Source of the DNA: Elusimicrobiota bacterium
GTDB lineage: Bacteria > Elusimicrobiota > Elusimicrobia > F11
DNA: 64,000 nt
Reading direction: 5' to 3'
Assembly (NCBI GenBank): GCA_022072025.1
Contig: JAJVIP010000009.1
Coordinates: 1 to 64,000, forward strand
Position numbers and translations under genes: made by a program. The notes beneath the pieces were generated by a model. It saw only the letters and a list, made by a program, of their open reading frames with translations. It did not search any database and was not told the DNA's origin. The stretch's first letter is position 1. Each line of letters starts with the position of its first letter. This document shows positions 24,447-58,465 of the stretch, in pieces.

Positions 24447-24460
24447 CCTGATGGGTGCCG

Positions 24461-24594: not shown

Positions 24595-24701
24595 TGCTGA
24601 AATTTTCAAAAAATCTCATTCCACGTCAGGCCGGACTTTCACTTTTTTTCAGCGTTTTCGGCCCATGTTACCGTCAAGAAATGCATTATGTGACGGGCTC
24701 T

Positions 24702-24811
24702 GCACAGACTGTCTCTTAATGATTGAAAAACGACGAAATAATAACGTGCGCGTTTTTTAAAGCGATACACTCGTTTTCCCTATGAAAATTGACATTACGA
24801 GACAGGCTTGC
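24702..24811. mobile_element. MITE-like element C, copy 2
   Basis: This copy interrupts the attC sequence GGGCTCTGCA|GCCGCTGG, which is continuous elsewhere in the array. TGCA is found at both junctions. The inverted ends carry CTGTCTC. Confidence 0.75.
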
Positions 24812-24860
24812 AGCCGCTGGTTAGGCGGCCGCCCAGCTCCTCCTTTTTTAATCAAGTTAA

Positions 24861-25247: not shown

Positions 25248-25276
25248 TCTTTTACCTCCATAGCATGCCGCCTAAC

Positions 25277-25495
25277 GAATAGCGTTTTATCGATTGTGCG
25301 AAGCATGATGGATAAAACGTGTTGAACGAAGCCGCTTCGCGGCCTTCTTTTCAACGGTGCTATGGGAATTCTAATGGGTTAGAGGAACGGATTCAAGGAA
25401 AGAAACCAGGACGCTCGATGGATTTAGGGTCCGGGTGACGAAGGCGGGAGTCAGCGCGAGGGGAATTTAACCCGCCGATCTGGGAAAAAAAGAAG
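25277..25495. repeat. IS91-type terminal repeat, copy 2 (joined to transposase)
   Basis: It begins right after the core GCCTAAC at 25270-25276. It matches the solo copy at 24219 and continues on the right into the 3' end of an IS91-type transposase gene read on the minus strand, as expected for the terminal end of a rolling-circle IS. Confidence 0.7.
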
Positions 25496-25571
25496 CCCGA
25501 ACCAAAGGAATCCACGCGCCTCCCTTGCAAGAGGTCGATCAACTCACGTTTGAAACAACCGACGCTGATTT

Positions 25572-32041: not shown

Positions 32042-32562
32042 TTCCGTTTTATAAGTACGGTAACGTATTTTTTCGTCGCCCCGGCATGCTTTTGGCCGGG
32101 GTCCAGGTTCTGACCGTGATAAACTTGCGCTCCCTTCCACAACGCTCTGCGTTATTTTTAACAAACAGAAAGGCGAGCAATATGAAAACTCCTTGCGTCT
32201 ATATTCTCACGAACAAACCGAATGGAACCTTTTATGTTGGTGTGACCTCCGACCCGCTAAAGCGTGTCTGGCAGCATCGAAGTGATTTTGTCAAAGGTTT
32301 CACCAATGAGCATCAGCTTCACCGGCTCGTATGGTACGAAGTACATGCAACAATGGAATCGGCCATCATCCGAGAAAAGGCCATTAAACGGTGGAAAAGG
32401 CTTTGGAAAAAACGGCTTATTGAAAAAAGAAATCCGCAGTGGAAGGATTTATTCAAAGAATTGGTCTGATCTCGGGGAACACCTGGGCCCCGGCCAAAAG
32501 ATCGCCGGGGCGACGGCGGACCGTTATTATTCCGCAATACGTTACCGTACTTATGAAACGGA
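32042..32562. mobile_element. GIY-YIG unit bounded by inverted repeats and REP arms
   Basis: The left outer arm TTCCGTTTTATAAGTACGG (to 32069) is matched in reverse at 32535-32562 with about two mismatches in 28. Inside each arm is a REP-like block: GTCGCCCCGGCATGC on the left (32075) and GCCGGGGCGAC on the right (to 32514), each beside an ACCTGG/CCAGGT block. Between them lies one gene, a GIY-YIG endonuclease. Gene-less versions of the same REP pair lie at 42771, 44782 and 58378. Confidence 0.75.
32182..32469 (+). CDS. GIY-YIG superfamily endonuclease (UPF0213/YhbQ-like)
   Basis: This 95-residue protein has the GIY-YIG core: YILTNKPNGTFYVGVT, then the catalytic Arg in DPLKRVWQH and the Glu in IIREKAIKRWKR. 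The length is that of stand-alone single-domain nucleases whose biological role is unsettled. The ATG at 32182 follows AGAAAGGCGAG. It is flanked on both sides by inverted REP arms, so it may be the nuclease that moves or maintains these repeats; that is inference. Confidence 0.88.
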   Translation: MKTPCVYILTNKPNGTFYVGVTSDPLKRVWQHRSDFVKGFTNEHQLHRLVWYEVHATMESAIIREKAIKRWKRLWKKRLIEKRNPQWKDLFKELV

Positions 32563-38729: not shown

Positions 38730-39323
38730 ATGAAAAAAAGACTGCTCATTGGGATTTTCCCGCTTTTGATGGCGGGTCCAATAAGCGCGGGAGGTTTTGA
38801 AGTGGCGCCTTTCTATGGCGTTCGTTTCGGGGGGCAATTGCAAGACACCGCAACCGGAGATTCCATTAATTTTGATCCGGCCGCCGCGGTTGGCGCGACC
38901 GTTAACATGCCTCTGCCAGGATTGCAGGAGAAACTCGAATTTCTCTATAGCCACCAAGAGACGGGTTTTAATGTTCCTGGGTTCACTTCTTCCGTAAATG
39001 TGAGGGTGGACGAATGGCAGGTTGGGTTGCTGCGCGAATATGAATACGAACCCTATCGACCGTTTCTGGTGGGCACGTTGGGAGCGACGAACTTGTCTTT
39101 TTCAGGGGGATTGGAAGACACAACTCTTTTCTCCGTTGGTTTGGGAGGCGGTGTGAAATATTTTCCCACCGAAAGAATTGGGTTTCGCCTCGATGCGCGG
39201 GGCTACGTTTCGTTTGTAGAAGGGAGTGGGGCCATTGCCTGTTCCGGTGGTTGCGTCGTGGGTTATCAGGGGTCCGTCTTCATGCAGGGTGAAATCCTGC
39301 CCAGCATTGTTGTTATTTTTTAG
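38730..39323 (+). CDS. Small outer-membrane beta-barrel protein
   Basis: This 197-residue exported protein has signal LIGIFPLLMAGPISA, followed by an eight-stranded-barrel-like body (FEVAPFYGVRFGGQL, YRPFLVGTLGATNLSF, ERIGFRLDARGYVSF), ending in IVVIF with terminal Phe. A near-terminal CSGGC may form a disulfide in a loop. It belongs to the same run of envelope genes. Family not recognised. Confidence 0.7.
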   Translation: MKKRLLIGIFPLLMAGPISAGGFEVAPFYGVRFGGQLQDTATGDSINFDPAAAVGATVNMPLPGLQEKLEFLYSHQETGFNVPGFTSSVNVRVDEWQVGLLREYEYEPYRPFLVGTLGATNLSFSGGLEDTTLFSVGLGGGVKYFPTERIGFRLDARGYVSFVEGSGAIACSGGCVVGYQGSVFMQGEILPSIVVIF

Positions 39324-39335
39324 GAGGTCGTTTTT

Positions 39336-40112
39336 ATGAAAACACATAGGTTGAAAGCTTTTGCGATCATCGTCACTCTTATCAGCTTTCAACAGCTGGT
39401 TGTACTCGCGGATGATTTGACTGGCGGTCTTCGCTTGGAATATTGGACCTATGGGGTGACTGGCAATGTAACTGTCGAAGGGTCTTCCGCAGACCTTGAC
39501 GACACGAGCAAGGTGATCAATGGGAATAATCACGGCTTCACCATTGGCGGGGAACGGCGCTTCGACAATTGGGGCCTGATGATGGATCTTTTCTTCGGAA
39601 AACAGAATACGAGTCAACAGCTCTCCAGTTCTCAGAGTGTTCAGTGGGATTTTGAAAGCGCGATCTTTACGGGGGGAGCGTATCTTTCTTTTCTTGATAC
39701 AGACTTCGATGGTAGCGATCGAAATTTACAGCTGGACGGGTTGGCGGGAATTCGAGGGTATTCCAACAGCTATAAGCTTCAGTTTGAACCTTATGACCCC
39801 AACAACGATAGGGACCGGTCGGACTACGTGAACTGGGTGGATCCGTATTTGGGAATGAGAATCAAATCAGCTTTAAGTGAGAAATGGGCCGTTGAGCTTT
39901 ACGGCGATGCCGGAGGTTTCGCTATCGGTTCTGCGTCAGAACTCTCGGTTCTCGCGCACGCCGCCATTGTTTGGTCCGTCACGCCTGGTTTGAATATTTT
40001 GGGCGGTTATCGCCTCTTCGATTTGGAGTCCGCGGAACCAAGCGGAGATCGTCCCACCCAGCTTGATATCCAAATGCGCGGCTTCACGTTGGGGATTGAA
40101 GGAAAATTCTAA
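39336..40112 (+). CDS. Outer-membrane beta-barrel protein, paralogue of 36713
   Basis: A 258-residue exported barrel. It shares with the 36713 protein VDPYLGMRIKSAL, GGFAIGSASELSVLAHAAI and GGYRLFDLESAE, and ends in EGKF. AGGAGG precedes the ATG. It is the last gene of the run before the first 270-bp repeat. Confidence 0.7.
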   Translation: MKTHRLKAFAIIVTLISFQQLVVLADDLTGGLRLEYWTYGVTGNVTVEGSSADLDDTSKVINGNNHGFTIGGERRFDNWGLMMDLFFGKQNTSQQLSSSQSVQWDFESAIFTGGAYLSFLDTDFDGSDRNLQLDGLAGIRGYSNSYKLQFEPYDPNNDRDRSDYVNWVDPYLGMRIKSALSEKWAVELYGDAGGFAIGSASELSVLAHAAIVWSVTPGLNILGGYRLFDLESAEPSGDRPTQLDIQMRGFTLGIEGKF

Positions 40113-40170
40113 AAAATTCCATTGAGAGAGAGCGGGGAGGAAACCCCTTGGATGGCGGTTAACCCGCACC

Positions 40171-40440
40171 ATGAAACGGAATCGTAGGATCTTGTTTTTA
40201 TACGAAGAAATGTTTGAAGGTCGCCGTCGCCCCGGCCTCGTTTTTAAGTGGGGTGATTGTTGGCAAGTGGATAAGCCGGGGCCCAGTCGTTCCGGCAGAA
40301 GGTGTGATGGACACACCTCACCCTCCGGAGAGGCTGGGTCCCGGCTTATACTCTTCTTGGCGTACACATCCTTTAAAAAATGGGCCGGGACGACGGCCAT
40401 GTTTGATCCCTTGTTGGGTTGCAGCGGAGCCACGCTATGA
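40171..40440 (+). repeat. 270-bp repeat R, copy 1, with open 89-codon frame ending in ATGA
   Basis: It begins ATGAAACGG and ends ACGCTATGA, where the TGA closes an 89-codon frame and the ATG starts the AsmA-like gene. Copies at 48683 and 51248 have the same length and the same end arrangement. Inside are REP-like blocks GTCGCCCCGGCC and GGCCGGGACGACGGCC. The product would be rich in Arg, Gly, Ser and Pro and differs from copy to copy at many residues, so real coding is doubtful. It fills the 40113-40436 gap. Confidence 0.8.
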
Positions 40441-42740
40441 AAACTTCGCCATTAAAGTCGATTTTTAATTTTCGCGTTGTTTTAATTTTAATTGCAACAA
40501 CGGCCCTTGGGTTTGGGGTGTTTTTATATCTCGCTTGGACAAAAGTGGAAGCGCGAATCAAAAGTCCTGGGTTCAAGACGGGAATGGAAAAAAGGATTTC
40601 AATCGCGACGGGTGCGGAAACGCGGATCGGCTTAATCGCAGGGCACTTGGGACTAAGACCCTGGATGTCAGCTCATGATGTTTCATTGGTTTTTCCAGAA
40701 GACGTCCTTCGAATGAATGCGGTTCAACTGAGATTCGACTTAAAAATATTGCCTTTGTTGAAAGGGGATATCGTTTTCTCCCGCATCGGCCTTGATCGTC
40801 CCAAAATAATTTATCGACAACCCAAACGAGGCGATCCCTATGGCCTTCCAATTATCTTTTCTCAAAAATCCTCCCATATCCAATCCATGCGGATCGAAGC
40901 GCTTTCTCTTAAAGAAGGCCGGGTGACCATTGTTGATTCAAGCACCTCTTCGATTCCCGTGGTTGAATTAGAAGCGAATGCCTCCACACGCTTTTCTCCC
41001 AAGACCAAAACCTACGACCTCCGTTTAAATGGAAAATTTTCCACCATGGGCGCGACCGGTCCCTTCGAAGTGAAGGGCGAACTTTTTCCAACTCTTGAAT
41101 GGAAAATGAACGTGCTTCTAAAAAATCCCGTGTCGAGAGGTTCCAGCGCGCCGCTGCCTCTACGGATTGATGCGGTGGTTCTCAGTTCAGGTCCGATGGT
41201 CATTGCGGCCGATTGGAAATCTTCTTTGTCGCCGGCCACCGCCGAAATCCGAATGGCCCAATGGCGTGATTCAAATTACACATTTCGAATAAACATATGG
41301 GGTGGTACAGTAACTGGGAACGGGTCCTGGAAAATGCGCGCCACGCCTCGCTCTCCCGTGTTTTTCAGCATTCGGGCGCAGGGCGATAAACTGCGGGTGG
41401 AAAATATTCTCGCTTTAACAGTTTCGACCGTGCCCTGGACCGGAGGGTTTAATTTTGATTTGGCTCTCAACGATTTTCCTGTGTATCAAATTGGGCGATG
41501 GAATACTGTCGCTGCCTTGGATTCCCTTTCGAAATCGCGTTCCGCCAACCTCGAGATTCGCGGCGATGCCTCTTTCCAAGAAAAATCTCCGCTGAAAGAC
41601 ATCGTTGGAACATTGCGGATGGACCCGGCTGGGCGGGTCTTCATCGCAGGTCTCGAGGTAAATTGGGAGGGCGGCGGACTTACCGGTGGCGCCTCTTTGC
41701 CTCATATCTCCCGGAGCAAAGCGACTGGGCCCCTGGATGTGGCGATGACCATTAATAATTTGGATTTGACGTTTTTGCCCGGTCTCGCCAAGAGGCTAAA
41801 TCTCTCAAGGGGGAAAATGAGCGCGGACATAAAATGGAGCGCGAATCCGATCGATCGGGGAATGTTTCAGGCCTTTGCGCCCAACGTCGCTTGGAGCGTG
41901 GATGGACGTTTCCAAGAACTCATGTGGCGAAACATTCCGTTTGATGATGTTGGGGGTCGTGTGAATTGGGATCAGTCAGAGGTCCAACTGGAAAATATTC
42001 GCGGTTCTGTCTCCAGCGGAACGTTTCTTGTAAGCGGCTCATTATCGAACCGTATGCCGGATGGATTCCACCGATTCGCCTCCTCTGCCACAATCACCAA
42101 TATCGAGGTCGAGCCGTTCATGTTTGAAATTTCCACCAATCCTATTTTGCGAAGAGGGCGATGGTCGTCAAAGGTGAGTTTGGCGGGTCATTTGAAGCCA
42201 TGGGATCCGGACAGTCTCTCGGGTCACCTCAGTCTGGCCGGTCGCAAAGGCCGCATCCGAGCGGGCTCCTTTTCGCTCGCATTGCTTAATCGGCTCAATC
42301 TAAAGTCGCTTATTGATTCGATGACGGGGCGTTTGGAAAGTGGATTTCCTTTTGAGGTTATCGACGCCACTGGCTCGATCGGAGGAGGGCGTATCACTTT
42401 TAATAACCCCGTTTGTTTCAAATCGCCCCATCTAGAAATAGTCTACACCGGCTGGGCCGGCGCAGATTTAAAATCGGCTGAAGGCGTTATGGCTGTAAAT
42501 CCGTTGGTGGGAACACGCAACTTATTGACGGCCATTCCCGGAGTTTCAACTCTCATGTTGGGCCCGAACGGAGAATTATTGCCGTTGATCGTTGATGTGA
42601 ATTATAAACAAGGACGCCTTGACACCAAATTTCGTTCCATCCAGACGTTGGCGGACCTGCCGATGCGCATCATTGGCAACGTGATTCGTTTGCCGGCCTC
42701 CCTCTTTGGCGGAAGAAAAAAGTCGCCGGCTTCTGAATAA
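40437..42740 (+). CDS. AsmA/YhdP-like envelope protein
   Basis: This 767-residue protein has one N-terminal membrane helix (VVLILIATTALGFGVFLYLAW) and a long beta-rich body, the layout of AsmA-like proteins. The N-terminal AsmA pattern is seen in VQLRFDLKILPLLKGDIVFSRIGLDRPKI; the C-terminal part has ENIRGSVSSGTFLVSGSLSN and ANPVCF/IVYTGWAGADLK-like repeats. Such proteins bridge the periplasm and are linked to phospholipid transport and outer-membrane assembly. Its start ATG is shared with the end of repeat R1, and no other start codon with a good ribosome site is visible. Confidence 0.75.
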   Translation: MKTSPLKSIFNFRVVLILIATTALGFGVFLYLAWTKVEARIKSPGFKTGMEKRISIATGAETRIGLIAGHLGLRPWMSAHDVSLVFPEDVLRMNAVQLRFDLKILPLLKGDIVFSRIGLDRPKIIYRQPKRGDPYGLPIIFSQKSSHIQSMRIEALSLKEGRVTIVDSSTSSIPVVELEANASTRFSPKTKTYDLRLNGKFSTMGATGPFEVKGELFPTLEWKMNVLLKNPVSRGSSAPLPLRIDAVVLSSGPMVIAADWKSSLSPATAEIRMAQWRDSNYTFRINIWGGTVTGNGSWKMRATPRSPVFFSIRAQGDKLRVENILALTVSTVPWTGGFNFDLALNDFPVYQIGRWNTVAALDSLSKSRSANLEIRGDASFQEKSPLKDIVGTLRMDPAGRVFIAGLEVNWEGGGLTGGASLPHISRSKATGPLDVAMTINNLDLTFLPGLAKRLNLSRGKMSADIKWSANPIDRGMFQAFAPNVAWSVDGRFQELMWRNIPFDDVGGRVNWDQSEVQLENIRGSVSSGTFLVSGSLSNRMPDGFHRFASSATITNIEVEPFMFEISTNPILRRGRWSSKVSLAGHLKPWDPDSLSGHLSLAGRKGRIRAGSFSLALLNRLNLKSLIDSMTGRLESGFPFEVIDATGSIGGGRITFNNPVCFKSPHLEIVYTGWAGADLKSAEGVMAVNPLVGTRNLLTAIPGVSTLMLGPNGELLPLIVDVNYKQGRLDTKFRSIQTLADLPMRIIGNVIRLPASLFGGRKKSPASE

Positions 42741-42770
42741 TACAAACGAAGAAAATAAATTTACAAAATC

Positions 42771-42918
42771 GTCGTCCCGGCACGCTTCTTGGCCGTACCG
42801 ATACATTGATTTACATAATGCCGGTACGTACCGACCAAGATCATTGTGGAACGGTACGGGACCCAGGTTCTGATCTCGACGAAAACCTGGACCCCGGCCA
42901 AAGGCTTGCCGGGGCGAC
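42771..42918. repeat. Gene-less REP pair (expanded)
   Basis: Left arm GTCGTCCCGGCACGCTTCTT and right arm GGCTTGCCGGGGCGAC face each other, with ACCCAGG and ACCTGGACC inside. An extra 60 bp with GCCGGTACGTACCG lies between. It resembles the arms of the GIY-YIG unit without the gene. The gap to 43104 also has a GTACCTTTAGGTAC palindrome (42935) and a GCGGCAAAGCCGC hairpin (43054). Confidence 0.7.
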
Positions 42919-43104
42919 AGCGTTTTGTGCAGTACCTTTAGGTACGAACTTTTCAAATGCCGCATCACTTAAGTCGTTTGTTTTAGTTCCAAGGAGACAC
43001 GGGTCACATCCCACGCCATATCGATTGATATGATGGCATCACAACAATGGTCGCGGCAAAGCCGCGCTTTAATGTCGGAATTTTATCGTGTGTAAGGAGG
43101 ATTT

Positions 43105-43572
43105 ATGCAGAGTTTAAAATGGATTATTGTCGCGGCTCTCATCGTCATGATTCCAGTTATGGGGCAAGCCATGTCCACGCCTGGAGAAGGGGAGTTAAAC
43201 CGAGCGGTGATCGAAGTTCAACGCAAGGCCATCGTTGAAAAGAACATGCAAATGGACGCGGCAACGGCCGCTCTATTTTGGCCGATCTATGAAGAATATG
43301 TGGAGGCCATGAGAAAACCCTCTGAGAAGGCCACCGCGCTGTTGACCAATTACGTTGGAAATTGGATGACTCTTTCCGAAGAAACAGCCAAGGAACTTCT
43401 TGATGAATTTTTTAGCGTTAAACAAGAACAACTCAAGGTGAAGAAATCTTTTGTCGGAAAGTTCTTAAAAAAACTTCCGCCCAAGATCGTGGCTCGATTT
43501 TTTCAAATAGAAAATAAGTTGGAGGCCATTGTCGCCGTTGAATTGGCCCAGAAAGTTCCCTTGGTTCGTTGA
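43105..43572 (+). CDS. Exported helical protein of unknown function
   Basis: This 155-residue protein has a signal peptide (WIIVAALIVMIPVMGQA) and a wholly helical, charged body with many Lys and Glu. It carries no cysteines and resembles small periplasmic Spy/CpxP-like proteins in size and helicity only. An AAGGAGG precedes the ATG. Its stop overlaps the next gene's TTG start (TTGA), so the two are coupled. Confidence 0.65.
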   Translation: MQSLKWIIVAALIVMIPVMGQAMSTPGEGELNRAVIEVQRKAIVEKNMQMDAATAALFWPIYEEYVEAMRKPSEKATALLTNYVGNWMTLSEETAKELLDEFFSVKQEQLKVKKSFVGKFLKKLPPKIVARFFQIENKLEAIVAVELAQKVPLVR

Positions 43573-44729
43573 AAAATCACCTATCCCTTGCTTTTTTATT
43601 TGTTGTTTTATTCGCGCGAACAGCAAGGAGCGCGGAAATTTCCGGCCCCCCCATTGAAGACAACAATTATCGTTTGGATTTAAGACAAGGCCCCATTATT
43701 GGATCGGCCAAACAAGTGGCGTTGGGGGGCGCCTACATTGGATTGGCGGAAGGCATCATGGCGCTTAATTCCAATCCGGCCGGCGTGGCCTTTCGGACGG
43801 CGCGATCAAAAAAGAAATTTGACTGGGATTGGACCGCGGGCGTGAATGATTTGAAAAGTAATGACTTTGACAACAACGGTTTTTCTCCTCCCAATTACGC
43901 GGGTCATCGTATTAGAAGCCTCGGAATCATGGGGCAATACGGGGCGTGGGGAGTGGGCATCCTTTCCAATGGTGAATTGCTGAAGTTGGAAAACTCTTCC
44001 AATCCAGACGATGAGTATGTGTTAAATGCCACCTCGTTCGCCTTGGGCCGGCAGTTGATGGATGAACAGCTCACGCTTGGGATTGGTCTGCGCGCAACGA
44101 TAATCAAACTTCGGACCACGAGTTTTGACGCCACGCTTGGAAAAATTTCAGGTGTCGGGTGGGACGTCGGCGGAATTTGGAACCCCAAACACAGCGGATT
44201 TCGTTTCGGAGCTTCTTTCGCGTCTTCAATTCGTTCAGCGCAGTCATTGAATACAACAAGTACATCGCCCGTCACCGTGAATGGGTTGATTATTCCCAGT
44301 GATGCCACCTTGCCATGGCAGTTTGGTGTGGGGGCGTCCTATCGCTCGAAGTCCGCGCCCTTTTGGAAAAGCCGTCCTTGGCTTTTGGCGGGAGATCTGG
44401 TTTTTATTGGAGCCAGTGACAATGCCGTTGGCGTTGAATCCGTCTTGGCCCAAAAGAAACAGACTGTGGGCGCTGAAACAACTCTCAGCGTTCGGATAGG
44501 TACCGAAGTAGAAGCGTTACCAGGGCGGTTGCGACTTCGGTTGGGGAGCTATTACGAGCCGTCCTTTTATTCGTCCAGCGATAGCCGCACGCATTTGACC
44601 GGCGGAGCGGAACTTCGCTTATTTCATACCCGAATTTGGGGGGAGTATGATTGGGGTTTCACCTATACCATCGACTCGGCTCGCGACTACCTCAACAACT
44701 TTGTTTCCATCGGTTTCTGGTATTACTGA
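43569..44729 (+). CDS. FadL/PorV-like outer-membrane protein
   Basis: This 386-residue exported protein has signal LAFLFVVLFARTARS. The early block ALGGAYIGLAEGIMALNSNPAGVAF is the hallmark of UPF0164/PorV and FadL-like barrels (GGAxxAxAxxxxALxxNPAGLA). The C-terminal half continues as strands, ending in GFWYY. It starts with TTG at 43569 overlapping the previous stop; no better start is visible. It may carry hydrophobic compounds or assist surface-protein export, as relatives do. Confidence 0.75.
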   Translation: MKNHLSLAFLFVVLFARTARSAEISGPPIEDNNYRLDLRQGPIIGSAKQVALGGAYIGLAEGIMALNSNPAGVAFRTARSKKKFDWDWTAGVNDLKSNDFDNNGFSPPNYAGHRIRSLGIMGQYGAWGVGILSNGELLKLENSSNPDDEYVLNATSFALGRQLMDEQLTLGIGLRATIIKLRTTSFDATLGKISGVGWDVGGIWNPKHSGFRFGASFASSIRSAQSLNTTSTSPVTVNGLIIPSDATLPWQFGVGASYRSKSAPFWKSRPWLLAGDLVFIGASDNAVGVESVLAQKKQTVGAETTLSVRIGTEVEALPGRLRLRLGSYYEPSFYSSSDSRTHLTGGAELRLFHTRIWGEYDWGFTYTIDSARDYLNNFVSIGFWYY

Positions 44730-44781
44730 CGAACTAATTGCAATGCGGATTAGTTAAGAGATCCTCCGTCGACGATTGGTC

Positions 44782-44866
44782 GTCATCCCGGCACGCTTCT
44801 TGGCCGGGATCCAGGTTTTGACCGAGGCTACACCTGGGCCCCGGCCAAACGGCATGCCGGGGCGAC
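44782..44866. repeat. Gene-less REP pair
   Basis: The 85-bp unit has left arm GTCATCCCGGCACGCTTCTT and right arm GGCATGCCGGGGCGAC with facing CCAGGT and ACCTGG blocks. It is the miniature form of the GIY-YIG unit arms. It lies between convergent genes. Confidence 0.75.
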
Positions 44867-44933
44867 GACTTCTTCTGACATCGGAATGGCCAAGATTATG
44901 GACGGTAATCCCCTTAACTAAACCGCATTGAGG

Positions 44934-45584
44934 TTAATGTCGGGGCGCAATCAGCCCTTTGTCGGACAGGTCACGGCCCATCGCTCTGGCCAATGACGCG
45001 ACCAAATCAGTCACGGAGTGGGGATCAAACGTTTCGGACTCTGCGGACCAAATTAATTCACCCTCTGGCGAAAAAATCTTTGTTTGCATGATAACGACCC
45101 TTGAATTGAGAAGATAGCCGGGCGTATAGACGGTGTTGTACATATCCTGATAGTCATTATCGAAGGATCCGTTGTAAGGGTTGGAGGGGGTCGAAGGTCG
45201 CTCGGTTTTGGTGCCGGAGACATAATCGGTTTTCAGGTCAACTCTCAAAAGTCGCGACACCAAGACGGCATCAAAACCTTTTCCTTTGATGGCCGCTTTG
45301 ACCGATTCTTTTCCCACGCCCATCTTGGGGGGGAGAACCTCCCATCCGGTCGCCGCTTCTCCGCCGCCCTTGCGGATCACGCTCGCAAAGGCGTTCTCGA
45401 AAGCCTTCTGTTTTTCGATCTGCTCCGAGAGTCCGATCACGAGAATTTTTTTGAGTGGCGCACGCTCGAAATTTCGATCGTACCAAACAGATTTCAACTG
45501 GGAATTCTCTGCGGCATATGAAACCGTGCAAGAATGAACTGCATTTAAAACCAGCATCACAGCCAACAACAGTCTTTTTATCAT
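44934..45584 (-). CDS. Exported protein of unknown function
   Basis: This 216-residue protein has a signal peptide (LLLAVMLVLNAVHSCTVSYA). Its body (APLKKILVIGLSEQIEKQKAFENAFASVI, then FDAVLVSRLLRVDLKTDYV and LNSRVVIMQTKIFSPEGELIWSAESETF) is similar in shape to small lipoproteins of the DUF4136/DUF4410 type, but I cannot assign it. It is divergent from the porin operon and shares dyad box 7, 36 bp before its ATG. Confidence 0.65.
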   Translation of the reverse strand: MIKRLLLAVMLVLNAVHSCTVSYAAENSQLKSVWYDRNFERAPLKKILVIGLSEQIEKQKAFENAFASVIRKGGGEAATGWEVLPPKMGVGKESVKAAIKGKGFDAVLVSRLLRVDLKTDYVSGTKTERPSTPSNPYNGSFDNDYQDMYNTVYTPGYLLNSRVVIMQTKIFSPEGELIWSAESETFDPHSVTDLVASLARAMGRDLSDKGLIAPRH

Positions 45585-45619
45585 ACGTTTGATTTATCAA
45601 ATGTTCAGTAATTTCTTAA

Positions 45620-45635
45620 TTGGACCAAGGTCCAA
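45620..45635. promoter_or_regulatory. Dyad operator TTGGACCAAGGTCCAA (box 7)
   Basis: A perfect extended dyad (7-bp arms) in the divergent gap; 66 bp before the porin ATG and 36 bp before the minus-strand gene. It likely drives the 10-kb operon that follows. Confidence 0.75.
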
Positions 45636-45701
45636 TAGACGTTGTTTCGCGGAAACCATCTAATCTCCCTATAAAATTATTTATGTAGGAGGACCCGCCT
45701 T

Positions 45702-46904
45702 ATGCATTCCACTGTTCTGAAACGCTTGTCTTTCGCATTTCTTTTTTTGATTTGCGCAACGACCCAGCGCCTGGCCCAAGCCGACCCCTCGTTTGAAGTC
45801 TATGGGTTCGCCATGTTGGATTACATTCAAGACTTTAACCGTGTTAATCCCGCGTGGGAGGCCACGCTCCGACCGAGCCGAATTCCCACAACGGAAGGAC
45901 TTTATGGAAGTGACGGTCAGGCCATTGTTTCCGCTCGACAGAGCCGCTTGGGGGTACAGGCAACGCTCCCCACCGAAAAAGGTGACGTTTACACCAAGTT
46001 CGAATTTGATTTGTTCGGCGTTGGGGTCGACGAAGGCCAGACCACCATTCGACTCCGACATGCCTATGGCCAATTTGGTCCCATCTTGGCCGGTCAGACC
46101 AATTCCCTTTTCATGGACGGGGACATTTTTCCCAACACCATCGATTACTGGGGTCCGTCGGGAATGGTTTTTTACCGGACACCCCAATTGCGATGGACCC
46201 AAGGATCCGACAAGACCAAATTTTCTTTGGGTATCGAGGTTCCCGGTACCGATGTTGATACGGGCCAAATTCGAAATTTGGACCCCGCCTTGGGTTCTTC
46301 GATTAAAGGCGACGAAAAATATCCGGACTTTACCGCTCAACTTCGTCGCAACGGCGGGTGGGGACATGTGCAAGCGGCCGGTATTTTGCGCTACCTCGGT
46401 TATGATACCCCGGGGGCTGTGGACAACGAACCCAATGGAAATGAAACCGGTTGGGGTCTTGACCTCACCTCGGTGGTTAACGTCCGCAAAAAAGACGCTC
46501 TTCGTGTCGGTGTTGTGTTCGGAGAAGGAATCGCCAGTTACATGAACGACGGGGGCATGGATTTGGCCCCAAAAGGATCCACGTCGACCATGATCAGTGC
46601 GGCCGCTGTTCCCCTGGTGGGTGTGTCCGCTTATTACGACCTTTGGTGGAGCGATAAATTCTCCAGTTCCATCGGCTATAGTTTCACGCAGGTGGACAAC
46701 ACCGACTTCCAAGCCGGGGACGCGTTCCACCTGGGACAATATGCCTCAGCCAACCTTCTTTATTATCCGACGAAGAACGTGTTCTACGGCGCGGAATATC
46801 TGTTCGGCCGACGCGAGGATAACAACGGAAAATCTGGGCAAGATCAACGCATTCAGTTCTCGGCGCATTACAAATTCTCGTCGAAAGACTTTTCAAACAA
46901 TTAA
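45702..46904 (+). CDS. DcaP-like outer-membrane porin
   Basis: This 400-residue exported porin has a signal peptide, then FEVYGFAMLDYIQDFN as first strand. The IRLRHAYGQFGPILAGQTNSLFMDGDIFPNTIDYWGPSG block is the DcaP/trimeric-porin signature. The C-terminal GAEYLFGRREDNNGKSG...QRIQFSAHYKF ends the barrel. DcaP porins admit anionic or small carboxylic compounds. GTAGGAGG precedes the ATG. It is the first gene of the operon that continues with glutaminase, so amide or amino-acid uptake is a reasonable inference. Confidence 0.85.
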   Translation: MHSTVLKRLSFAFLFLICATTQRLAQADPSFEVYGFAMLDYIQDFNRVNPAWEATLRPSRIPTTEGLYGSDGQAIVSARQSRLGVQATLPTEKGDVYTKFEFDLFGVGVDEGQTTIRLRHAYGQFGPILAGQTNSLFMDGDIFPNTIDYWGPSGMVFYRTPQLRWTQGSDKTKFSLGIEVPGTDVDTGQIRNLDPALGSSIKGDEKYPDFTAQLRRNGGWGHVQAAGILRYLGYDTPGAVDNEPNGNETGWGLDLTSVVNVRKKDALRVGVVFGEGIASYMNDGGMDLAPKGSTSTMISAAAVPLVGVSAYYDLWWSDKFSSSIGYSFTQVDNTDFQAGDAFHLGQYASANLLYYPTKNVFYGAEYLFGRREDNNGKSGQDQRIQFSAHYKFSSKDFSNN

Positions 46905-46934
46905 CAAGTAAGGATGATTAAGGAGGAACCAAAT

Positions 46935-47966
46935 ATGTTGATGAAATTTGATTCAGGAAGAGGGGCGATTAGAAGTCTGGTCGCCATTGTGTTCATGCTG
47001 GCAACGGCCACGTCTTTCGCGGCTGATCTCAAGAAAACGGAGGTCGACGCCGCCCTCAACCAGGCTTACACGAAATACAAAGGATTGCAGGAAGGGAAAA
47101 ACGCCGACTACATTCCCGCCTTGGCCAAAGTGCCGTCGCAGTATTTCGGCATCGCGTTGGTGACTGTGGACGGCAAGGTGTACACCATAGGGGATATAGA
47201 TAAATTGTTTTCAATTCAGTCCATTTCCAAAGTGTTCACGATGGCGCAAGTCATGCAGGAGTCCGGAGAGGATGTAATTGAAAAGGGCGTTGGCGTTGAT
47301 GCCACCGGGCAGGTTTTCAACTCGATTGTGGCTGTTGAGCAATACCGCGGCCATGAGATGAACCCGCTGGTCAACCCTGGCGCGATCACCACCACCAGCA
47401 ACGTCAAAGGAGCGACGGCGGATGAAGTGTGGGCCAAGATTCTCGGTATTCACAGCGATTGCGCGGGCCGTCCCTTGGAGGTCAATCAAGAGGTTTACAA
47501 ATCCGAGGCTGACACCAATCAGCGCAACCGCGCCATTGGTGCGCTCATGTACGCTTATGGCCTCATTAAAGAAAAACACGAACAGGCTGTTGACCTCTAT
47601 ACGCGCCAATGCTCCATCAATGTGAACGCCAAAGACTTGGGGATGATGGCCGCAACCTTGGCCAATGGCGGCAAGAACCCCGTTACGAAAAAACAGGTGA
47701 TCGATCAAAAACATATCCCGGGCATTCTGGCTGTCATGTCGACGGCAGGACTCTATGACGATTCTGGAAAATGGCTGTTTATGACCGGGCTTCCCGGTAA
47801 AAGCGGCGTGGGAGGCGGTATTATTGCCGTGTCCCCAGGAAAATTCGGTATTGCCGCCTTTTCGCCACCGCTGGATGCGGCGGGAAACAGCGTGCGGGCT
47901 CAGAAAGCGATCACCGATATCTCGAAGAGACTCAACGGTAATCCGTACAAAATTGCACCGAAGTAA
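46935..47966 (+). CDS. glsA: Glutaminase A, exported
   Basis: This serine-dependent beta-lactamase-fold glutaminase hydrolyses glutamine to glutamate and ammonia. The SxxK catalytic motif is SISK near residues 96-99; family blocks include YIPALAKVPSQYFGIALV, NPLVNPGAI, NQRNRAIGALMYAYG and GLPGKSGVGGGI. It is 343 residues long, near the usual ~310 plus a signal peptide (SLVAIVFMLATATSFA), so this form acts in the periplasm, which is less usual than the cytoplasmic enzyme. Start ATG at 46935 follows AAGGAGGAACCAA; the frame is open a little upstream (46914). Confidence 0.93.
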   Translation: MLMKFDSGRGAIRSLVAIVFMLATATSFAADLKKTEVDAALNQAYTKYKGLQEGKNADYIPALAKVPSQYFGIALVTVDGKVYTIGDIDKLFSIQSISKVFTMAQVMQESGEDVIEKGVGVDATGQVFNSIVAVEQYRGHEMNPLVNPGAITTTSNVKGATADEVWAKILGIHSDCAGRPLEVNQEVYKSEADTNQRNRAIGALMYAYGLIKEKHEQAVDLYTRQCSINVNAKDLGMMAATLANGGKNPVTKKQVIDQKHIPGILAVMSTAGLYDDSGKWLFMTGLPGKSGVGGGIIAVSPGKFGIAAFSPPLDAAGNSVRAQKAITDISKRLNGNPYKIAPK

Positions 47967-47981
47967 CAGAGCATCAAATCG

Positions 47982-48686
47982 ATGCGAAAATGTCGGCGAC
48001 AATGGACCTTGTTCCCCCTTGGCCTATTTGTCGCCGGCATTTTTTCCCCGGGCCGTTTATTAGCGGAACTGAGAGTCGCACCAGAAATGGCGCTCTATAT
48101 CACGCACAACAGCAACTTGCGAAGTCGGTTTGTGGCCAACGGAACGTGGAAAGAAGAAGTGGAAGAATTCACAAGCGCGGGGTTTGAGTATGATCTCGAT
48201 ATCGGTTTGCTCTCATTTTTTCGGCGTTATGTTTTCAAAGATCCCAATGCTGAAAAGTCCAAGAGAATAAGCGTGAGGTTGGGCTACGCCTATTTGCCTG
48301 ACCTGGTATCTGGGGATCCGGACCTGGATGAAGAACGGGCTTTGGGGGAGGTGACGTTTCGTTTCCCATTGGGACAGGCTTGGCTGTTAACCGATCGAAA
48401 CCGAGGGGAACTTCGATTTATTGGCGACGTGGAATCCACTCGTTACCGCAACCGTCTCCGCCTGGAGCGCAATGTGGCGATCAGCCGATTCCGAATTACC
48501 CCTTACGCCAATGCTGAAGCCTTTTTCGAGAGCATTACCGATGAATGGAACCAGGTTGACGGAACCGTGGGCGCCGAGTTTCCGTGGCACTACCAAACAA
48601 TTTTGGAATTTTATTGCACTTGGCAATTCACTCGAAATCTGGAGGATGATCAGATCTTTGGGGTGACCTTGCAGAAACATTTATGA
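47982..48686 (+). CDS. DUF2490 exported barrel-like protein
   Basis: This 234-residue protein has a signal (LGLFVAGIFSPGRLLA). Strands such as ISVRLGYAYLPDLVSG and FRFPLGQAWLLTDRNRGELRFIGD, then YRNRLRLERNV, fit DUF2490. Such proteins are small outer-membrane barrels of unknown function. It lies 15 bp after glutaminase. Its stop overlaps the start of repeat R2 (ATGA). Confidence 0.72.
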   Translation: MRKCRRQWTLFPLGLFVAGIFSPGRLLAELRVAPEMALYITHNSNLRSRFVANGTWKEEVEEFTSAGFEYDLDIGLLSFFRRYVFKDPNAEKSKRISVRLGYAYLPDLVSGDPDLDEERALGEVTFRFPLGQAWLLTDRNRGELRFIGDVESTRYRNRLRLERNVAISRFRITPYANAEAFFESITDEWNQVDGTVGAEFPWHYQTILEFYCTWQFTRNLEDDQIFGVTLQKHL

Positions 48687-48952
48687 AATGGAAACGTGGG
48701 ATCTTGTTTTTAAACGAAGAAATATTTGAAGGTCGCCGTCGCCCCGGCCTCGCCTTTAAGGGGAGTGATTGTTGGCAAGTGGATAAGCCGGGGCCCAGTC
48801 GTTCCGGTAGAAGGTGTGATGGGATCACCTCCCCCTCCGGAGAGGCTGGGTCCCGGCTTATGCTCTTCTCGACGCGCACAACTTTTAAAAAATGGGCCGG
48901 GACGACGGCCATGCCTGATCCCTTGTTGGGTTGCCGCGGTGCCGCGCTATGA
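48683..48952 (+). repeat. 270-bp repeat R, copy 2, coupled on both sides by ATGA
   Basis: The repeat's ATG overlaps the DUF2490 stop and its TGA overlaps the next gene's ATG, so the 89-codon frame would be read as a linking cistron. ATGAAA occurs at both edges, as expected if the element inserted at an ATGAAA start and duplicated it. Otherwise as for copy 1. Confidence 0.82.
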
Positions 48953-49824
48953 AATTTAAAAAAAATATTTATTGCGCGCTTTTTTGTGTAAGCACCGCAC
49001 TCTATTGTTGGGGCGCCGATCCGATCCCATTGTCCATCATGACTCAGGACTATCCTCACACGCGGTCCATCGTGAATGGCGCTATTGAGATTCCGGAATG
49101 TCGAATCAGTTACGCCACCGCCACTCTCTCCCAGATTGAGCAAAAAATTGAACAGGGCTCGGCCGGAGACATTGTTGAAGTTGATTTCGCGGCATTCTTA
49201 AAACGTTTTTCCAGCGAAGAAACTCATGATTGGGTGTTGGTCCCGGTCTATCTATGGCGCGCGTTTCCGCATCGGCACATTGTCGCGAAAAGCGACGGCT
49301 CCCTGGCGGTTAATGTGTCCGGTGCCTCCGTGCGGGTCTGGGCGCGAGGTATTGTTGAATCGTCTTCGACTTTTGTAGCGGGGAGTGTGAGTTGGGACCC
49401 AACCATTCCCTCCTCCACCGAGGCGGTTAAACCTTATTTCCCTGATTCAAAAACCGCTGAACAAAATTATTTCCATGATACGCGGATATTTCCCGTCATG
49501 ACGGTCTTGGCCGTGCGTAAGGAGTTGGTTGAGGCCAACCCCTGGTTGCCGGAGGCCATTTTTATCGCGTTTTCAGAGGCAAAGACTCAAGCCTTGGAGG
49601 GAAATAGTCTTCCGCTCCCCTGGGGAGAACCATATCGCGATGAAACCCTTGAGTTGATGAAGAAAAATTATTGGTCTTACGGCGTTAGAAACAACCCGAA
49701 AACATTGGGCGCTTTTTTTAAATATGTTCAGGAACAGGGCCTCACTCAAAAAGAGTTATCACCTGAGGAAGTGTTTGCGTCGGAGATCTTGCAGCTCATT
49801 GATGAGAAAGGGGCCAAAAATTGA
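48949..49824 (+). CDS. 4,5-dihydroxyphthalate decarboxylase-like (PBP2-fold) exported protein
   Basis: A 291-residue protein with a signal peptide (IYCALFCVSTALYCWGA) and a type 2 periplasmic-binding fold. It matches the pattern of 4,5-dihydroxyphthalate decarboxylases: ALxRxFSSEETHDWVLVPVYLWRAFPHRHIVAK, VRVWARGIV, FPVMTVLAVRKELVEANPWLPEAIFIAF, then NYWSYGVRNNPKTLGAFFKYVQEQGL. The cytoplasmic enzyme removes CO2 from dihydroxyphthalate; the exported form here may instead bind an aromatic acid. The start is fused to repeat R2; the frame extends to 48931 but with no better start. Confidence 0.78.
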   Translation: MKFKKNIYCALFCVSTALYCWGADPIPLSIMTQDYPHTRSIVNGAIEIPECRISYATATLSQIEQKIEQGSAGDIVEVDFAAFLKRFSSEETHDWVLVPVYLWRAFPHRHIVAKSDGSLAVNVSGASVRVWARGIVESSSTFVAGSVSWDPTIPSSTEAVKPYFPDSKTAEQNYFHDTRIFPVMTVLAVRKELVEANPWLPEAIFIAFSEAKTQALEGNSLPLPWGEPYRDETLELMKKNYWSYGVRNNPKTLGAFFKYVQEQGLTQKELSPEEVFASEILQLIDEKGAKN

Positions 49825-51185
49825 AGTTTAAGAAGATATCAAGTTCGGCCCTATTTTTTGTGTTGGTGGGGAGTTCACTGATTCGGCAGGTAGGGGCTGA
49901 GGTGACGATGGACCAGGTTCGCGAGGAAGTTCAACGGCAAATTCAGGAAACAACCTCAAGGGCACATGAGGTTCCAGCCGCTCCAGATCAAAGCAAGATT
50001 GATTTCACCTCCGGAAACGGAATATCTCTCGTGCAATCAACGAATGGTGAGATGAAATTGACGCTGTATATGATGATGCGTTACCTCAATCAATTGCCAG
50101 CGACACAAACTTATAGCGATCATCTCGGAAACACCCGGAATATCGACACGGCAAATTTCTTTTCTGTGCCCCATCGGGTCCTCATGAGTCTTATGGGATG
50201 GGTCTATGATCGGCGGTTGCTTTACCAGGCGACCTATTGGACGGTGAACGCCACAGATAAAGTGGCGATCATTGGCAATATCGCGTGGGTGTTCAATAGA
50301 AAAGTTGCGATTTTTGCCGGTGTTGGATCCCTACCAGGAATTCGGACATTGACTTATTCCCACCCCAATTGGTTGGGAACGGACCGAAACATGGCGGAAG
50401 AATTTTTTCGTCCCGGATTTACGCAAGGCGTTTGGGTGACTGGCGAGGCGCTCCCGGGATTGAACTACAACGTGATGTTGGGCAACAACCTCACCACGCT
50501 CAATGTCAACGCGACTGAGGATTCACGGGATTTTGCGGCGAGTGGAAGCATTTGGTGGATGCCCACAACACAAGAATTTGGACCCAGAAGCGGAAATGGT
50601 GACTTCGAAAATCATCAGCAACTCGCGACCCGGTTTGGGATGGCGTATACGCAGGCCAAACAGAACCGCGCCACATCGACAACCAATCAGGCGCCTGACT
50701 CCACTCAGATCCGAATGGCCGACAGTCTTCTGCCATTTGAATCCGGAGCACTTGCCACTGGCGTGACGGTTGAGAACGTGAAGTATCAAATGGCCGCCAC
50801 TGATGCCGGATTCAAATATCGAGGATGGCATGTGCAAGGCGAGGGGTATCTGCGTAAGTTAAGCGATTTTGAAGCCAATGGGCCACTGCCCATCAATTCC
50901 GTTGTCGACACCGGTTTTTTTGTTCATGTGGCGAAAATGCTGAAGCCAAAAAAACTCGAGGGATATATCAGCACGGCGTTTGTTTTTGGAGACAAAGACG
51001 CCGGTTACAGCGATAGTCGAGAGTTGATCGAAGGCGTAAACTGGTACATGTTCGAAACCCGCAATTGCCGCATGAATTTCCACGCAATCCAAATTGACCG
51101 CTCGCCCACGTCCTCCGTTTTCGGCTATTACGTCGGTGGCCAAAAAGGGACGATCCTTTCGGCATCGTGGTTGATTAATTTCTAG
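49821..51185 (+). CDS. Large outer-membrane porin with N-terminal coiled coil
   Basis: This 454-residue exported protein has signal ALFFVLVGSSLIRQVGA, a short coiled coil (DQVREEVQRQIQETTSRA) and a barrel. The porin at 54690 is a paralogue: both have LFxYxRYLNQ, YSDxLG..., GWxxDxRxLYxxTYWT, GxGSLPG, WLGxDRNxxxEFFRPxxTxGV, and YNVMLGNNLxxLNV. This resembles OprP/O-type porins with an N-terminal trimerisation helix. Its TTG start overlaps the previous stop. It may supply substrate to the amidohydrolase that follows. Confidence 0.75.
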   Translation: MKFKKISSSALFFVLVGSSLIRQVGAEVTMDQVREEVQRQIQETTSRAHEVPAAPDQSKIDFTSGNGISLVQSTNGEMKLTLYMMMRYLNQLPATQTYSDHLGNTRNIDTANFFSVPHRVLMSLMGWVYDRRLLYQATYWTVNATDKVAIIGNIAWVFNRKVAIFAGVGSLPGIRTLTYSHPNWLGTDRNMAEEFFRPGFTQGVWVTGEALPGLNYNVMLGNNLTTLNVNATEDSRDFAASGSIWWMPTTQEFGPRSGNGDFENHQQLATRFGMAYTQAKQNRATSTTNQAPDSTQIRMADSLLPFESGALATGVTVENVKYQMAATDAGFKYRGWHVQGEGYLRKLSDFEANGPLPINSVVDTGFFVHVAKMLKPKKLEGYISTAFVFGDKDAGYSDSRELIEGVNWYMFETRNCRMNFHAIQIDRSPTSSVFGYYVGGQKGTILSASWLINF

Positions 51186-51247
51186 GGAGGCATATGATGA
51201 CATTACGATTTCTCGTTTTTTCACCTTGGTTGCACTGGGGCTGGGCT

Positions 51248-51517
51248 ATGAAATGGAATCGTGGGACCTTGTTTTTATACGAAGAAATTTTAGAAGGTCG
51301 CCGTCGCCCCGGCCTCGCTTTTAAGGGGAGTGATTGTTGGCAAGTGGATAAGCCGGGGCCCAGTCGTTCCGGCAGAAGGTGTGATGGGATCACCTCACCC
51401 TCCGGAGAGGCTGGGTCCCGGCTTATCCTCTTCTCGACGCACACATCCTTTAAAAGATGGGCCGGGACGACGGCCATGCTTGATCCCTTGTTGGGTTGCG
51501 GTGGAGCTGCGCTATGA
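51248..51517 (+). repeat. 270-bp repeat R, copy 3
   Basis: It begins ATGAAATGG within a longer open frame that starts at 51194 after GGGAGGCAT, and ends GCGCTATGA, overlapping the amidohydrolase ATG. Length and frame equal copies 1 and 2. The upstream ribosome site is the strongest of the three, so this copy might be translated (107 codons). Otherwise as for copy 1. Confidence 0.82.
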
Positions 51518-52587
51518 ATCGAAAAAACAAATATATCATTGCGCTGGTCGCTGTGTTGGCGACAGTTCCCCTTTGTGTCCACGCGGCGAAAAAAGGAACT
51601 TACGAATTCAACGATGCTCATTTCCATCTCACGAACTACATCCAGGAAGGAACGGATATTCACGATTTCCTCAAGATCATGGGTGATAAAGTCGGCCGGG
51701 TGGCGTTGTTCGGGATTCCACTTCAACAACAGTGGTCGTACCGTGTGATGGGAGACAAAGCTCCCACGTATTATTTGGACACCGACAGCCCTCTGTACTA
51801 TTACTCTTTCACCGATGCCGTGATCGCGACAGCCTATCTCTCGCTACCCAAGAAAGATCGCGCCCGTTTTGATCCGATGATCACCGGATTCAACCCAACA
51901 GACATGTACGCGGCGGATCACATAAGGCGGGTCTTGAAAACTTTTCCGGGCGTATTCGTTGGTATCGGCGAGTTCACAATTCACAAAGAGTTTGTGTCTT
52001 CGAAAATCAGCGGGGACGTAGCGAGTTTAAACGATCCGGCGCTGGACCGAATTTTTGATTTGGCCGCAGAGGCAGGGCTCGTGATTATTTTCCACAACGA
52101 CGCCGATCGCCCTTTCGCTAAGAAGGGGGCGGAGCCGGCCTTTCTTGAATCAGCCAAAGCGCTTTTCAAACGCCATCCAGGCGCCACCACCATTTGGGCG
52201 CATACCGGGACAGGAAGAGTCGTCCATCCGATGACCAACCATGCCGCAATGTTAGAGGAAATTTTATTGGACCCCGCGTATTCCCATGTGTATTTCGATA
52301 TTTCCTGGGATGAAGTGGCGAAATACATCACCGCATCTCCCGAATCGTTGGACATCACGGCAAAATTGATCAGTCGTTATCCGGACCGGTTCTTATTTGG
52401 AACCGACGAAGTGGCCCCCAAAACCCAAGAGGCGTACACCAAGGTTTTCAATATGTACCAGCCCTTGTTTGATCGATTGTCTCCCGACGTAAGGGAAAAG
52501 TTGTTGAAAATAAATTACGAACGCATCTTCGACGCCGCGCGGAAAAAGGTTCGGATGTGGGAAGCGGCTCAAACGAAAGGAGGATAA
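51514..52587 (+). CDS. Exported amidohydrolase (Amidohydro_2 family)
   Basis: A 357-residue metal-dependent TIM-barrel hydrolase or decarboxylase with a signal peptide (ALVAVLATVPLCVHA). Motifs: DAHFHLTNY (first His pair), a mid-barrel GIGEFTIHKEFV, VIIFHNDAD, TIWAHTGTG and FGTDEVAPK, with the last Asp at the barrel's end. Amidohydro_2 includes decarboxylases of aromatic acids. Being next to the decarboxylase-like protein it may form an aromatic-acid module, although both are exported here. It shares its start with repeat R3. Confidence 0.82.
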   Translation: MNRKNKYIIALVAVLATVPLCVHAAKKGTYEFNDAHFHLTNYIQEGTDIHDFLKIMGDKVGRVALFGIPLQQQWSYRVMGDKAPTYYLDTDSPLYYYSFTDAVIATAYLSLPKKDRARFDPMITGFNPTDMYAADHIRRVLKTFPGVFVGIGEFTIHKEFVSSKISGDVASLNDPALDRIFDLAAEAGLVIIFHNDADRPFAKKGAEPAFLESAKALFKRHPGATTIWAHTGTGRVVHPMTNHAAMLEEILLDPAYSHVYFDISWDEVAKYITASPESLDITAKLISRYPDRFLFGTDEVAPKTQEAYTKVFNMYQPLFDRLSPDVREKLLKINYERIFDAARKKVRMWEAAQTKGG

Positions 52588-52591
52588 GCCG

Positions 52592-53110
52592 ATGAAAAAA
52601 AATCGATTAACAGTTTTCCTGGTCGCTGGCCTTGCGATTCAATTTTTTATTCTGCCAAGTACAATCAGATGTGAAGAGAAGAAAACAAATGAAGAAAACC
52701 CCGTCGGTCGAATTTACGGTACACCTATTGGGTCTGATCTTCTTGTCAATGTTTCACCATATTTGGGGATGAATTTAAAATATGTGATTGAAGTTTATTT
52801 GGTATCGAACGAAGCGAAAGATCGGGTGGGGGCGCATGTTTCTGCCTGCGTTTATCTCCCCGGAAGCGATCGAGCGCGATGCGATGACCTAACCTTTGCC
52901 TTGCCACAATTGACAATGGATCGCGAGAAAAAAACCGTGATGTTAAAAGATCAGGTGGTCGCGAAAATAGGCAACTATCCTCATTGGGCGCAGATTCAAA
53001 ACCCTTTCAAACTCAGCTATGAGATAGAGACACAAAAAACGGATACAGGTTTTGAGCAAAATGAAATCCGACGTGTAAAAGTTTATTTGGAAAATGTCCT
53101 CGCGCAATGA
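52592..53110 (+). CDS. Exported protein of unknown function
   Basis: This 172-residue protein has a signal peptide (FLVAGLAIQFFILPSTIRC). A beta-rich body with two cysteines (SACVYLPGSDRARCDD) follows. AAAGGAGG lies eight bases before the ATG and overlaps the amidohydrolase stop region. The next gene starts in the overlapping ATGA. No family recognised. Confidence 0.68.
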   Translation: MKKNRLTVFLVAGLAIQFFILPSTIRCEEKKTNEENPVGRIYGTPIGSDLLVNVSPYLGMNLKYVIEVYLVSNEAKDRVGAHVSACVYLPGSDRARCDDLTFALPQLTMDREKKTVMLKDQVVAKIGNYPHWAQIQNPFKLSYEIETQKTDTGFEQNEIRRVKVYLENVLAQ

Positions 53111-58377: not shown

Positions 58378-58465
58378 GTCGCCCCGGCATGCTTTTGGCC
58401 GGGGCCCAGGTTTTCATCTAAGAAAAAACCTGGATCCCGGCCAAGAAGATTGCCGGGAAGACGAC
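58378..58465. repeat. Gene-less REP pair
   Basis: The 88-bp unit has left arm GTCGCCCCGGCATGCTTTTG and right arm GATTGCCGGGAAGACGAC with facing CCCAGGT and ACCTGG blocks. The left arm is identical in its first twenty bases to that of the GIY-YIG unit. Confidence 0.75.

Follow-up and report, generated by a model that had tools for sequence, protein, structure and literature searches.

Operons offer mobile DNA little room, since most insertions disrupt a gene or have polar effects on the operon. How, then, can a repeat of 270 nt stand directly before three genes of an Elusimicrobiota bacterium and run into each of their start codons? The window, that is the whole stretch of DNA analysed here (64,000 nt), comprises bases 1-64000 of contig 9 of a 3.64-Mb genome in 43 contigs. 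The original prediction, made from these letters, had proposed an element that inserts at ATGAAA start codons, where it would restore the start and leave the operon translationally coupled. The repeat family appears to solve the problem of operon entry by exploiting the overlap of stop and start codons, and we consider it probable that it is a modular, non-autonomous mobile element which enters at start codons and is retained via translational coupling.

Three repeats in the window and their neighbour genes

The features around the three repeats are listed below.

40171-40440, + strand: copy 1, family A; leader ORF of 89 codons, from ATGAAA to TGA
40437-42740, + strand: downstream gene 1, start codon from the right end of copy 1; AsmA/YhdP-like, with a weak Pfam match below the cut-off
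47982-48686, + strand: DUF2490 gene, its TGA stop formed at the left junction of copy 2 (ATGA)
48683-48952, + strand: copy 2, family A leader ORF; ATGA overlap at each side
48949-49824, + strand: downstream gene 2, 291 aa, no Pfam family; start codon from copy 2
51194-51251, + strand: core-less mini element, a type-C-like left end joined straight to a right end
51248-51517, + strand: copy 3, family A leader ORF, sitting at the ATG of the mini element
51300-51474, no strand assigned: palindromic core of copy 3, matching its own reverse complement at 72% and resembling a CGTC-type REP head-to-head dimer (cf. PMC3733652)
51490-51517, + strand: right-end module of copy 3; small hairpin GCGGY-GGA-GCTGC with the Shine-Dalgarno-like motif GGAG, then GCT and ATG
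51514-52587, + strand: downstream gene 3, amidohydrolase (PF04909); start codon from copy 3

As had been described, the copies at 40171, 48683 and 51248 are each 270 nt long without indels, begin with ATGAAA and end with GCTATGA. This length includes the rebuilt ATGA; the DNA added between the two ATGs amounts to 266 nt (40173-40438 in copy 1, if the cut is TAT^G). An 89-codon ORF is present in every copy, with its TGA overlapping the ATG of the next gene, and the predicted upstream coupling of copy 2 was likewise found, the left ATGA also providing the stop of the DUF2490 gene. The labels given to the downstream genes fared unevenly: the amidohydrolase is supported by Pfam, the AsmA-like assignment is weak, and the "decarboxylase-like" gene has no Pfam match at E<=0.01. 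ATGAAA at both edges is true of copies 1 and 2 and not of copy 3, which ends in ATGAAT. Within the mini element, the left-end model described below matches 51194-51224 and the right-end model 51226-51251; its frame continues in frame into copy 3, forming a 107-codon ORF from 51194. Rfam gave no match on window positions 39000-53000.

Other repeats are also present in the window. A cluster at 16697-25500 contains a 117-nt palindromic repeat (CGGGGTCAAGTCTGAGTTTTGAGTC...CTCAGACTTGACCCCG) at 16697, 17836 and 21133, and a 143-nt repeat with four copies between 18748 and 24595. A 30-nt, inversely symmetric motif around TTGGACCAAAGTCCAATAT, possibly an operator, occurs four times (2088, 34684, 35460 and 56223).

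Family A across the genome

A total of 24 full-length family A copies and a few partial ones were found genome-wide, with 86-100% identity to copy 3 over 269-270 aligned nt and no internal indel in any of the 24. Beyond the window, the analysis covered the loci to which searches pointed. In 22 of the 24, a real gene (at least 70 codons) starts at the right-edge ATG, where about 3 are expected by chance. Within the window, ORFs of 70 or more codons begin at 21 of the 168 YTATG sites, which gives this placement P=3e-18; under a laxer null of 24%, P=5e-12. Copy L020 ends on a 21-codon ORF, which overlaps a dehydrogenase E1 alpha-like gene by ATGA, and L017 lies about 50 codons ahead of an RND gene and so not directly at a gene start. 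The target genes include prfC, transaldolase, ubiX, methionine sulfoxide reductase, cytochrome oxidase subunit IV, ABC ATPases and RND transporters; target names beyond the Pfam-tested ones are our reading of the sequences.

The leader frame is open to at least codon 85 in all 24 copies. In L012 and L024 the leader stops at codon 86, 8 nt before the ATG; the base after the ATG is T and the overlapping TGA is missing. A family A copy that lost exactly 90 nt (C7:149708-149887) is still in frame and still has its ATGA; the gene behind it has 467 codons. Had the copies been random in length and frame and away from starts, this would have spoken against the original prediction; the collected full-length copies are instead of 270 nt and mostly at gene starts.

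Insertion at start codons and the junctions

Orthologues of ubiX, tal, hisI, ilvE, gatC, hypC and hisD in sister genera of the family have the same start codon and no element before it, except that one of the two hisD orthologues starts two codons earlier. The start of HypC is not in doubt because the protein begins MCLAIPG. Since the orthologues of these seven target genes share the start codon without the element, the elements are insertions. The check in relatives that had been named thus shows, in other genera, these genes without the element. In sister genera ubiX follows directly after the preceding gene; here the preceding gene ends in the left-junction TGA, as expected if the empty site was CTAT joined to GA. 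Eight family A copies have an upstream frame that stops at +4 in the left-junction ATGA, seven of these being long gene frames and one, before L016, a type-B leader.

The left flank of family A has T at -1 in 22 of 24 copies, and Y at -2 in 22 of 24, against T in 20 of 44 for the long-ORF background. Most copies of types B and C, which are introduced below, have TAT or a near variant directly before their first base. After the right ATG comes A in 19, T in 3 and G in 2 of the 24 family A copies; because this base varies, at most ATG is common to both edges. The proposed target duplication of ATGAAA at a gene start is therefore abandoned. The three junction types fit YTAT^G. At -1 and -2, the left junction does not vary together with the right one (L008, for example, has C vs T, and L018 has G vs A), and thus the T is not duplicated. 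A 3-nt duplication of ATG may apply to family A as its edges read, and would leave types B and C without an account. Across the three types, a cut at YTAT^G without consistent duplication of the target seems to describe the junctions best, as we infer from the aligned ends. The left end (ATGATGACATCG or GAAATGGAATCG) and the right end CGCTAT are not inverted copies of each other, and the palindrome is confined to the core.

A modular class with different cores and common ends

By searching for the right-end pattern, the same right end was found with different interiors. In this genome, a left-end model of 45 positions matched about 58 left ends (E<0.01), and a right-end model of 28 positions matched 32 right ends (E<0.02). 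Type B has TAT followed by the left end AGTATGAAATCTCAATTTCATGTTAATTTG, and the core GTCGCCCCGGCATG...GGGGCGAC. Type C has YTAT followed by ATGATGACATCGCAATTTCTTG, and the core GTCATCCCGAG...CAGAATGAC. The right ends of the class read GCGGAGAATCCGCGCTAT or GCGGCGGAGYTGCGCTAT, each followed by G. Such ends and interiors make up a modular class: this genome has three of its cores, and a sister genus has a fourth. On inspection, cores A, B and D start with a CGTC(G/A)(C/T)CCCG-like sequence and end in its reverse complement, and the type-C core starts with GTCATCCCGAG; the cores match their own reverse strand.

Outside family A, 21 members stand at start codons with an open leader. Their lengths are 162, 168, 171, 198, 261, 264 and 267 nt, all multiples of 3, and their targets are hisD, gatC, purE, a nifS-like gene, hypC, ilvE, an ilvE-like gene, proA, hisI, an MFS transporter, lipoproteins and others. 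One start-site member, C7:235892 (161 nt, before a HAD gene), has a broken frame. The idea of one constant, frame-preserving length is accordingly right for family A, and outside it only the multiple of 3 is kept at start sites, with the exception of that frame-broken copy. Members without a gene are mostly truncated or frame-broken (C18:60772, C30:37889, C11:30214, C15:100288, C10:302490); C27:2791 has an open frame though no gene lies behind it, and C27:35652 has an open frame with a gene 27 nt further downstream. Elements are also found in tandem. At C5:134278-134741, a type B element (C5:134278, one of the 21) ends in the ATG of family A copy L016, which is its next ORF, and the second tandem lies in the window, where the mini element ends in the ATG of copy 3 (51194-51517).

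Core-only B-type CGTC palindromes, without end modules and off start codons, occur in the window at 42770-42919, 44780-44867, 32075-32515 and 58378-58463, and position 42748 may hold a decayed left end (CGAAGAAAA). Elsewhere, a core-A palindrome (L038, C11:148473-148650) is located within a long open frame, close to the N-terminal end, and resembles an RPE-like in-frame insertion.

The resemblance of the cores to head-to-head dimers of CGTC REPs (PMC3733652), and the existence of core-only copies off start codons, could suggest ordinary REP/BIME repeats that lie upstream of genes by chance and carry chance ORFs. However, 22 of 24 family A copies stand exactly at a start codon (P about 1e-12 to 1e-18), the ends are conserved independently of the core, and the depletion of stops reported below is confined to one frame. 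Published REPs occur in intergenic regions, for the most part close to 3' ends, or within genes; where the flanking genes are co-directed, they are found close to the 3' end of the upstream gene and at varying distance to the downstream gene (PMC3733652). We regard this explanation as very improbable.

Selection on the leader frame

A total of 170 distinct changes from the consensus were scored in codons 2-85 of family A and compared with expectations under the same base-change spectrum; counted against the consensus and not on a tree, these changes allow for shared ancestry only in part. Synonymous changes number 47 (43 expected) and nonsynonymous changes 122 (119 expected), and there is one apparent nonsense change where 7.9 are expected (P=0.0009). 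This apparent TTA to TAA change is really GAA in both copies, so that no stop has been gained in codons 2-85. An earlier, weaker version of the test, which included the last codons, gave 2 vs 8.4 (P=0.0085). In the five other frames, observed and expected stops are 7/6.8, 7/6.4, 5/4.3, 4/7.7 and 7/5.1, none significantly depleted; the mild deficit of 4 vs 7.7 (P=0.08) belongs to the antisense frame that is open in the consensus. Open frames at starts (44/1) compared with those away from starts (4/8) give Fisher P=2.5e-6, a comparison with some circularity, since a truncated copy is unable to lie at a start.

The constant-length open frame in 24 copies could point to a conserved gene family for a small protein of 89 aa, duplicated many times. 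Yet both synonymous and nonsynonymous changes are at the neutral expectation, other class members encode unrelated peptides from other cores, and the peptide has no supported Pfam family, its best match being below the cut-off. The conserved-protein reading of the leader is rejected on the codon tests, and such a gene family is scarcely credible. This agrees with the original prediction, which had noted many amino-acid changes against a conserved protein and yet an unbroken frame: the changes are neutral in kind and indels are absent from all 24 copies. As far as the substitutions can tell, selection in family A keeps the frame open and does not act on the peptide. Such a loss of stops alongside freely changing amino acids would be expected if ribosomes had to translate the frame to get to the next gene, and not if a peptide were conserved; it indirectly supports a dependence of downstream translation on that of the leader.

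Leader RNA, proposed coupling and proposed mechanism

The leader stop is at +4 relative to the ATG in most start-site copies, the exceptions to a nearby stop being C7:235892 (-55) and L017 (+157). At ATGT and ATGG junctions, L017 excepted, it lies at -8, +7, +10, +13 or +37. The leader RNA is predicted to form a giant hairpin, followed by a small hairpin with GGAG right before the ATG, and the consensus folds have predicted energies of -134.6 (A), -96.9 (B) and -53.4 (C) kcal/mol. A Shine-Dalgarno-like motif precedes the leader ATG in only 7 of 24 family A copies, against 12% at random positions, so that support for initiation at the leader ATG is weak.

We propose that a modular, non-autonomous, palindromic mobile element would enter at start codons, between YTAT and G. 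Its first bases would preserve a stop or provide a start; in family A these bases are GA, so that TAT joined to GA would remain ATGA. At the other side the element would end in GCTAT, and the G of the host gene would complete a new ATG. The leader ORF would start at the old start codon in family A, or at the element's own ATG in types B and C, and its frame would cross the hairpin core. Translating ribosomes would open the leader hairpin and finish on or near the rebuilt ATG, mostly at ATGA, and the host gene would then be read by termination-reinitiation, to which the GGAG motif in the right end may contribute. The host gene would thereby come to need ribosomes across the hairpin, and this lock-in would purge stops and frameshifts while the peptide drifts. 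In ATGA gene pairs, premature stops in the upstream gene abolish translation of the downstream gene (PMC6728339), and selection for an open leader frame would therefore follow.

The very stable predicted leader RNA, the SD-like motif in a small hairpin before the ATG, the conserved ends and the dozens of copies might instead indicate a leader owned by the host: a domesticated hairpin, acting as translational attenuator or RNA-stability element, which was copied before genes as useful and is no tolerated parasite. The same frame-only selection is compatible with it. On the other hand, the targets share no common theme (hisD, hypC, prfC, the dehydrogenase E1 gene, RND pumps, ABC transporters), the cores are freely swapped, sister genera do without the element at the compared genes, and tandem insertions are found at C5:134278-134741 and window 51194-51517. 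A host-owned leader is unlikely, if the most serious of the rivals.

A mobile element retained by coupling remains the preferred reading. Most of the original prediction is kept in it, namely the position at gene starts, the absence of any stop before codon 86 and the element-free relatives. ATGAAA as the target is given up. The sequence itself shows the start-codon position, the insertion relative to sister genera, the modular ends and cores, the ATGA junctions and an open frame depleted of stops but free in its amino acids; transposition, the YTAT^G cut, translation of the leader, coupling as the cause of the selection and a mover of Y1/RAYT type are inferred.

Candidate mover and distribution

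Three Y1/RAYT genes are present in the genome, and a mover of this type could have transposed the element. No element was found within about 1 kb of the three genes, and the element has no linked transposase. The genome's Y1 proteins include those encoded at C15:68515 and C5:117776. On one contig, two RAYT-like genes for Y1 transposases (L048 and L049; C15:68515 and C15:76438), with translations that look identical, lie 8 kb apart.

No match to the element was found in phages, viral contigs or GTDB-220 genome contigs, and in 60 relatives no family A DNA was found but one 35-nt stretch. Four right ends (E<0.001) were found in a genome from another genus of the family (G001; completeness 71%, contamination 14%). 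Two of them belong to intact leaders with a fourth core (CGTCATTCCCGCGAAAGCGGGAATCCAG), a third has a nested repeat by which the frame is broken, and the last is decayed; neither the hemN leader nor one nested copy has an intact leader. Among 235 genomes of the class, the right-end model gave only three matches beyond the family, in two genomes of family f3 and none at a gene start. These TTGGATTGCGGCGRRRCCGCGCTATG-like sequences (L200 and L203 in G014, L201 in G026) fit the right-end model and start no gene. The nearest named relative of the genome's own transaldolase, at 55%, is a Candidatus Omnitrophica MAG, which is weak evidence for a placement in Omnitrophota.

As the genome is in 43 contigs, an artefact of assembly or binning may be asked for. 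Each copy has its own flanks and private substitutions, though, the junctions coincide exactly with gene starts, and another genome has these ends with a different core; we give an artefact hardly any weight.

Such leaders would constitute a natural record of selection for translation as such, in which stops are removed and amino acids drift, and translational coupling becomes testable from sequence. It is predicted that many odd "hypothetical proteins" in the lineage are translated leaders. For gene callers, this is a warning that such a leader ORF is not a conserved protein.

Comparison with known systems

Rickettsia palindromic elements (RPEs; Ogata et al. 2000, cited in PMC10969869) are the closest example of frame-compatible palindromic mobile DNA. 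They are similar in being short, palindromic, mobile-like DNA that host genes tolerate because reading frames stay open, with several families per genome. RPEs lie inside ORFs and are translated within the host protein, whereas the element here lies exactly at the start codon with a separate leader ORF, which ends at ATGA or nearby in another frame, and the host protein is unchanged and starts at the ancestral codon.

Like CGTC-tagged REPs (PMC3733652), the cores contain CGTC...GACG-tagged palindromes head to head, as seen by inspection, and no dedicated transposase has been found for either. The element differs from them in its conserved non-palindromic end modules (leader start on the left, SD-hairpin-ATG on the right) and in its site, as REP location is unrelated to start codons. 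With IS200/IS605-type elements and RAYT-mobilised REPs (PMC8266576) it would share a fixed short left target without consistent duplication, and it has hairpins near the ends and a right end resembling the target (GCTAT^G), but it is without a linked transposase; the cuts reported for TnpAREP are at CT or CA (PMC8266576).

In termination-reinitiation at ATGA overlaps (PMC6728339), as here, the stop of the upstream frame overlaps the next start, and early upstream stops are expected to silence the downstream gene. The leader stops lie within reinitiation distance, mostly at +4 and else from -8 to +37 (excluding C7:235892 and L017). The known cases are pairs of host genes, whereas here an inserted element, present in many copies, takes the upstream place. 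Small palindromic repeats holding open frames are also known from ERIC and other MITEs with ORFs (PMC10969869). They are not described as start-codon-specific, and in the searched text of that review "start codon" has 0 matches and frame-only selection does not appear; classical MITEs have terminal inverted repeats at both ends, while only the core is palindromic here. No precedent for start-codon-specific elements with frame-only selection was found in the open-licence PMC papers searched.

The element may be placed among the palindromic, non-autonomous mobile elements, and there is a fair chance that its start-codon niche deserves a class of its own. We lean towards such a separate class of mobile DNA, which would split TAT from G, restore the previous stop and the next start, carry a translated, coupled leader and be hard to lose as the host gene depends on it, with palindromic REPs of several families serving as interchangeable cores within constant ends.
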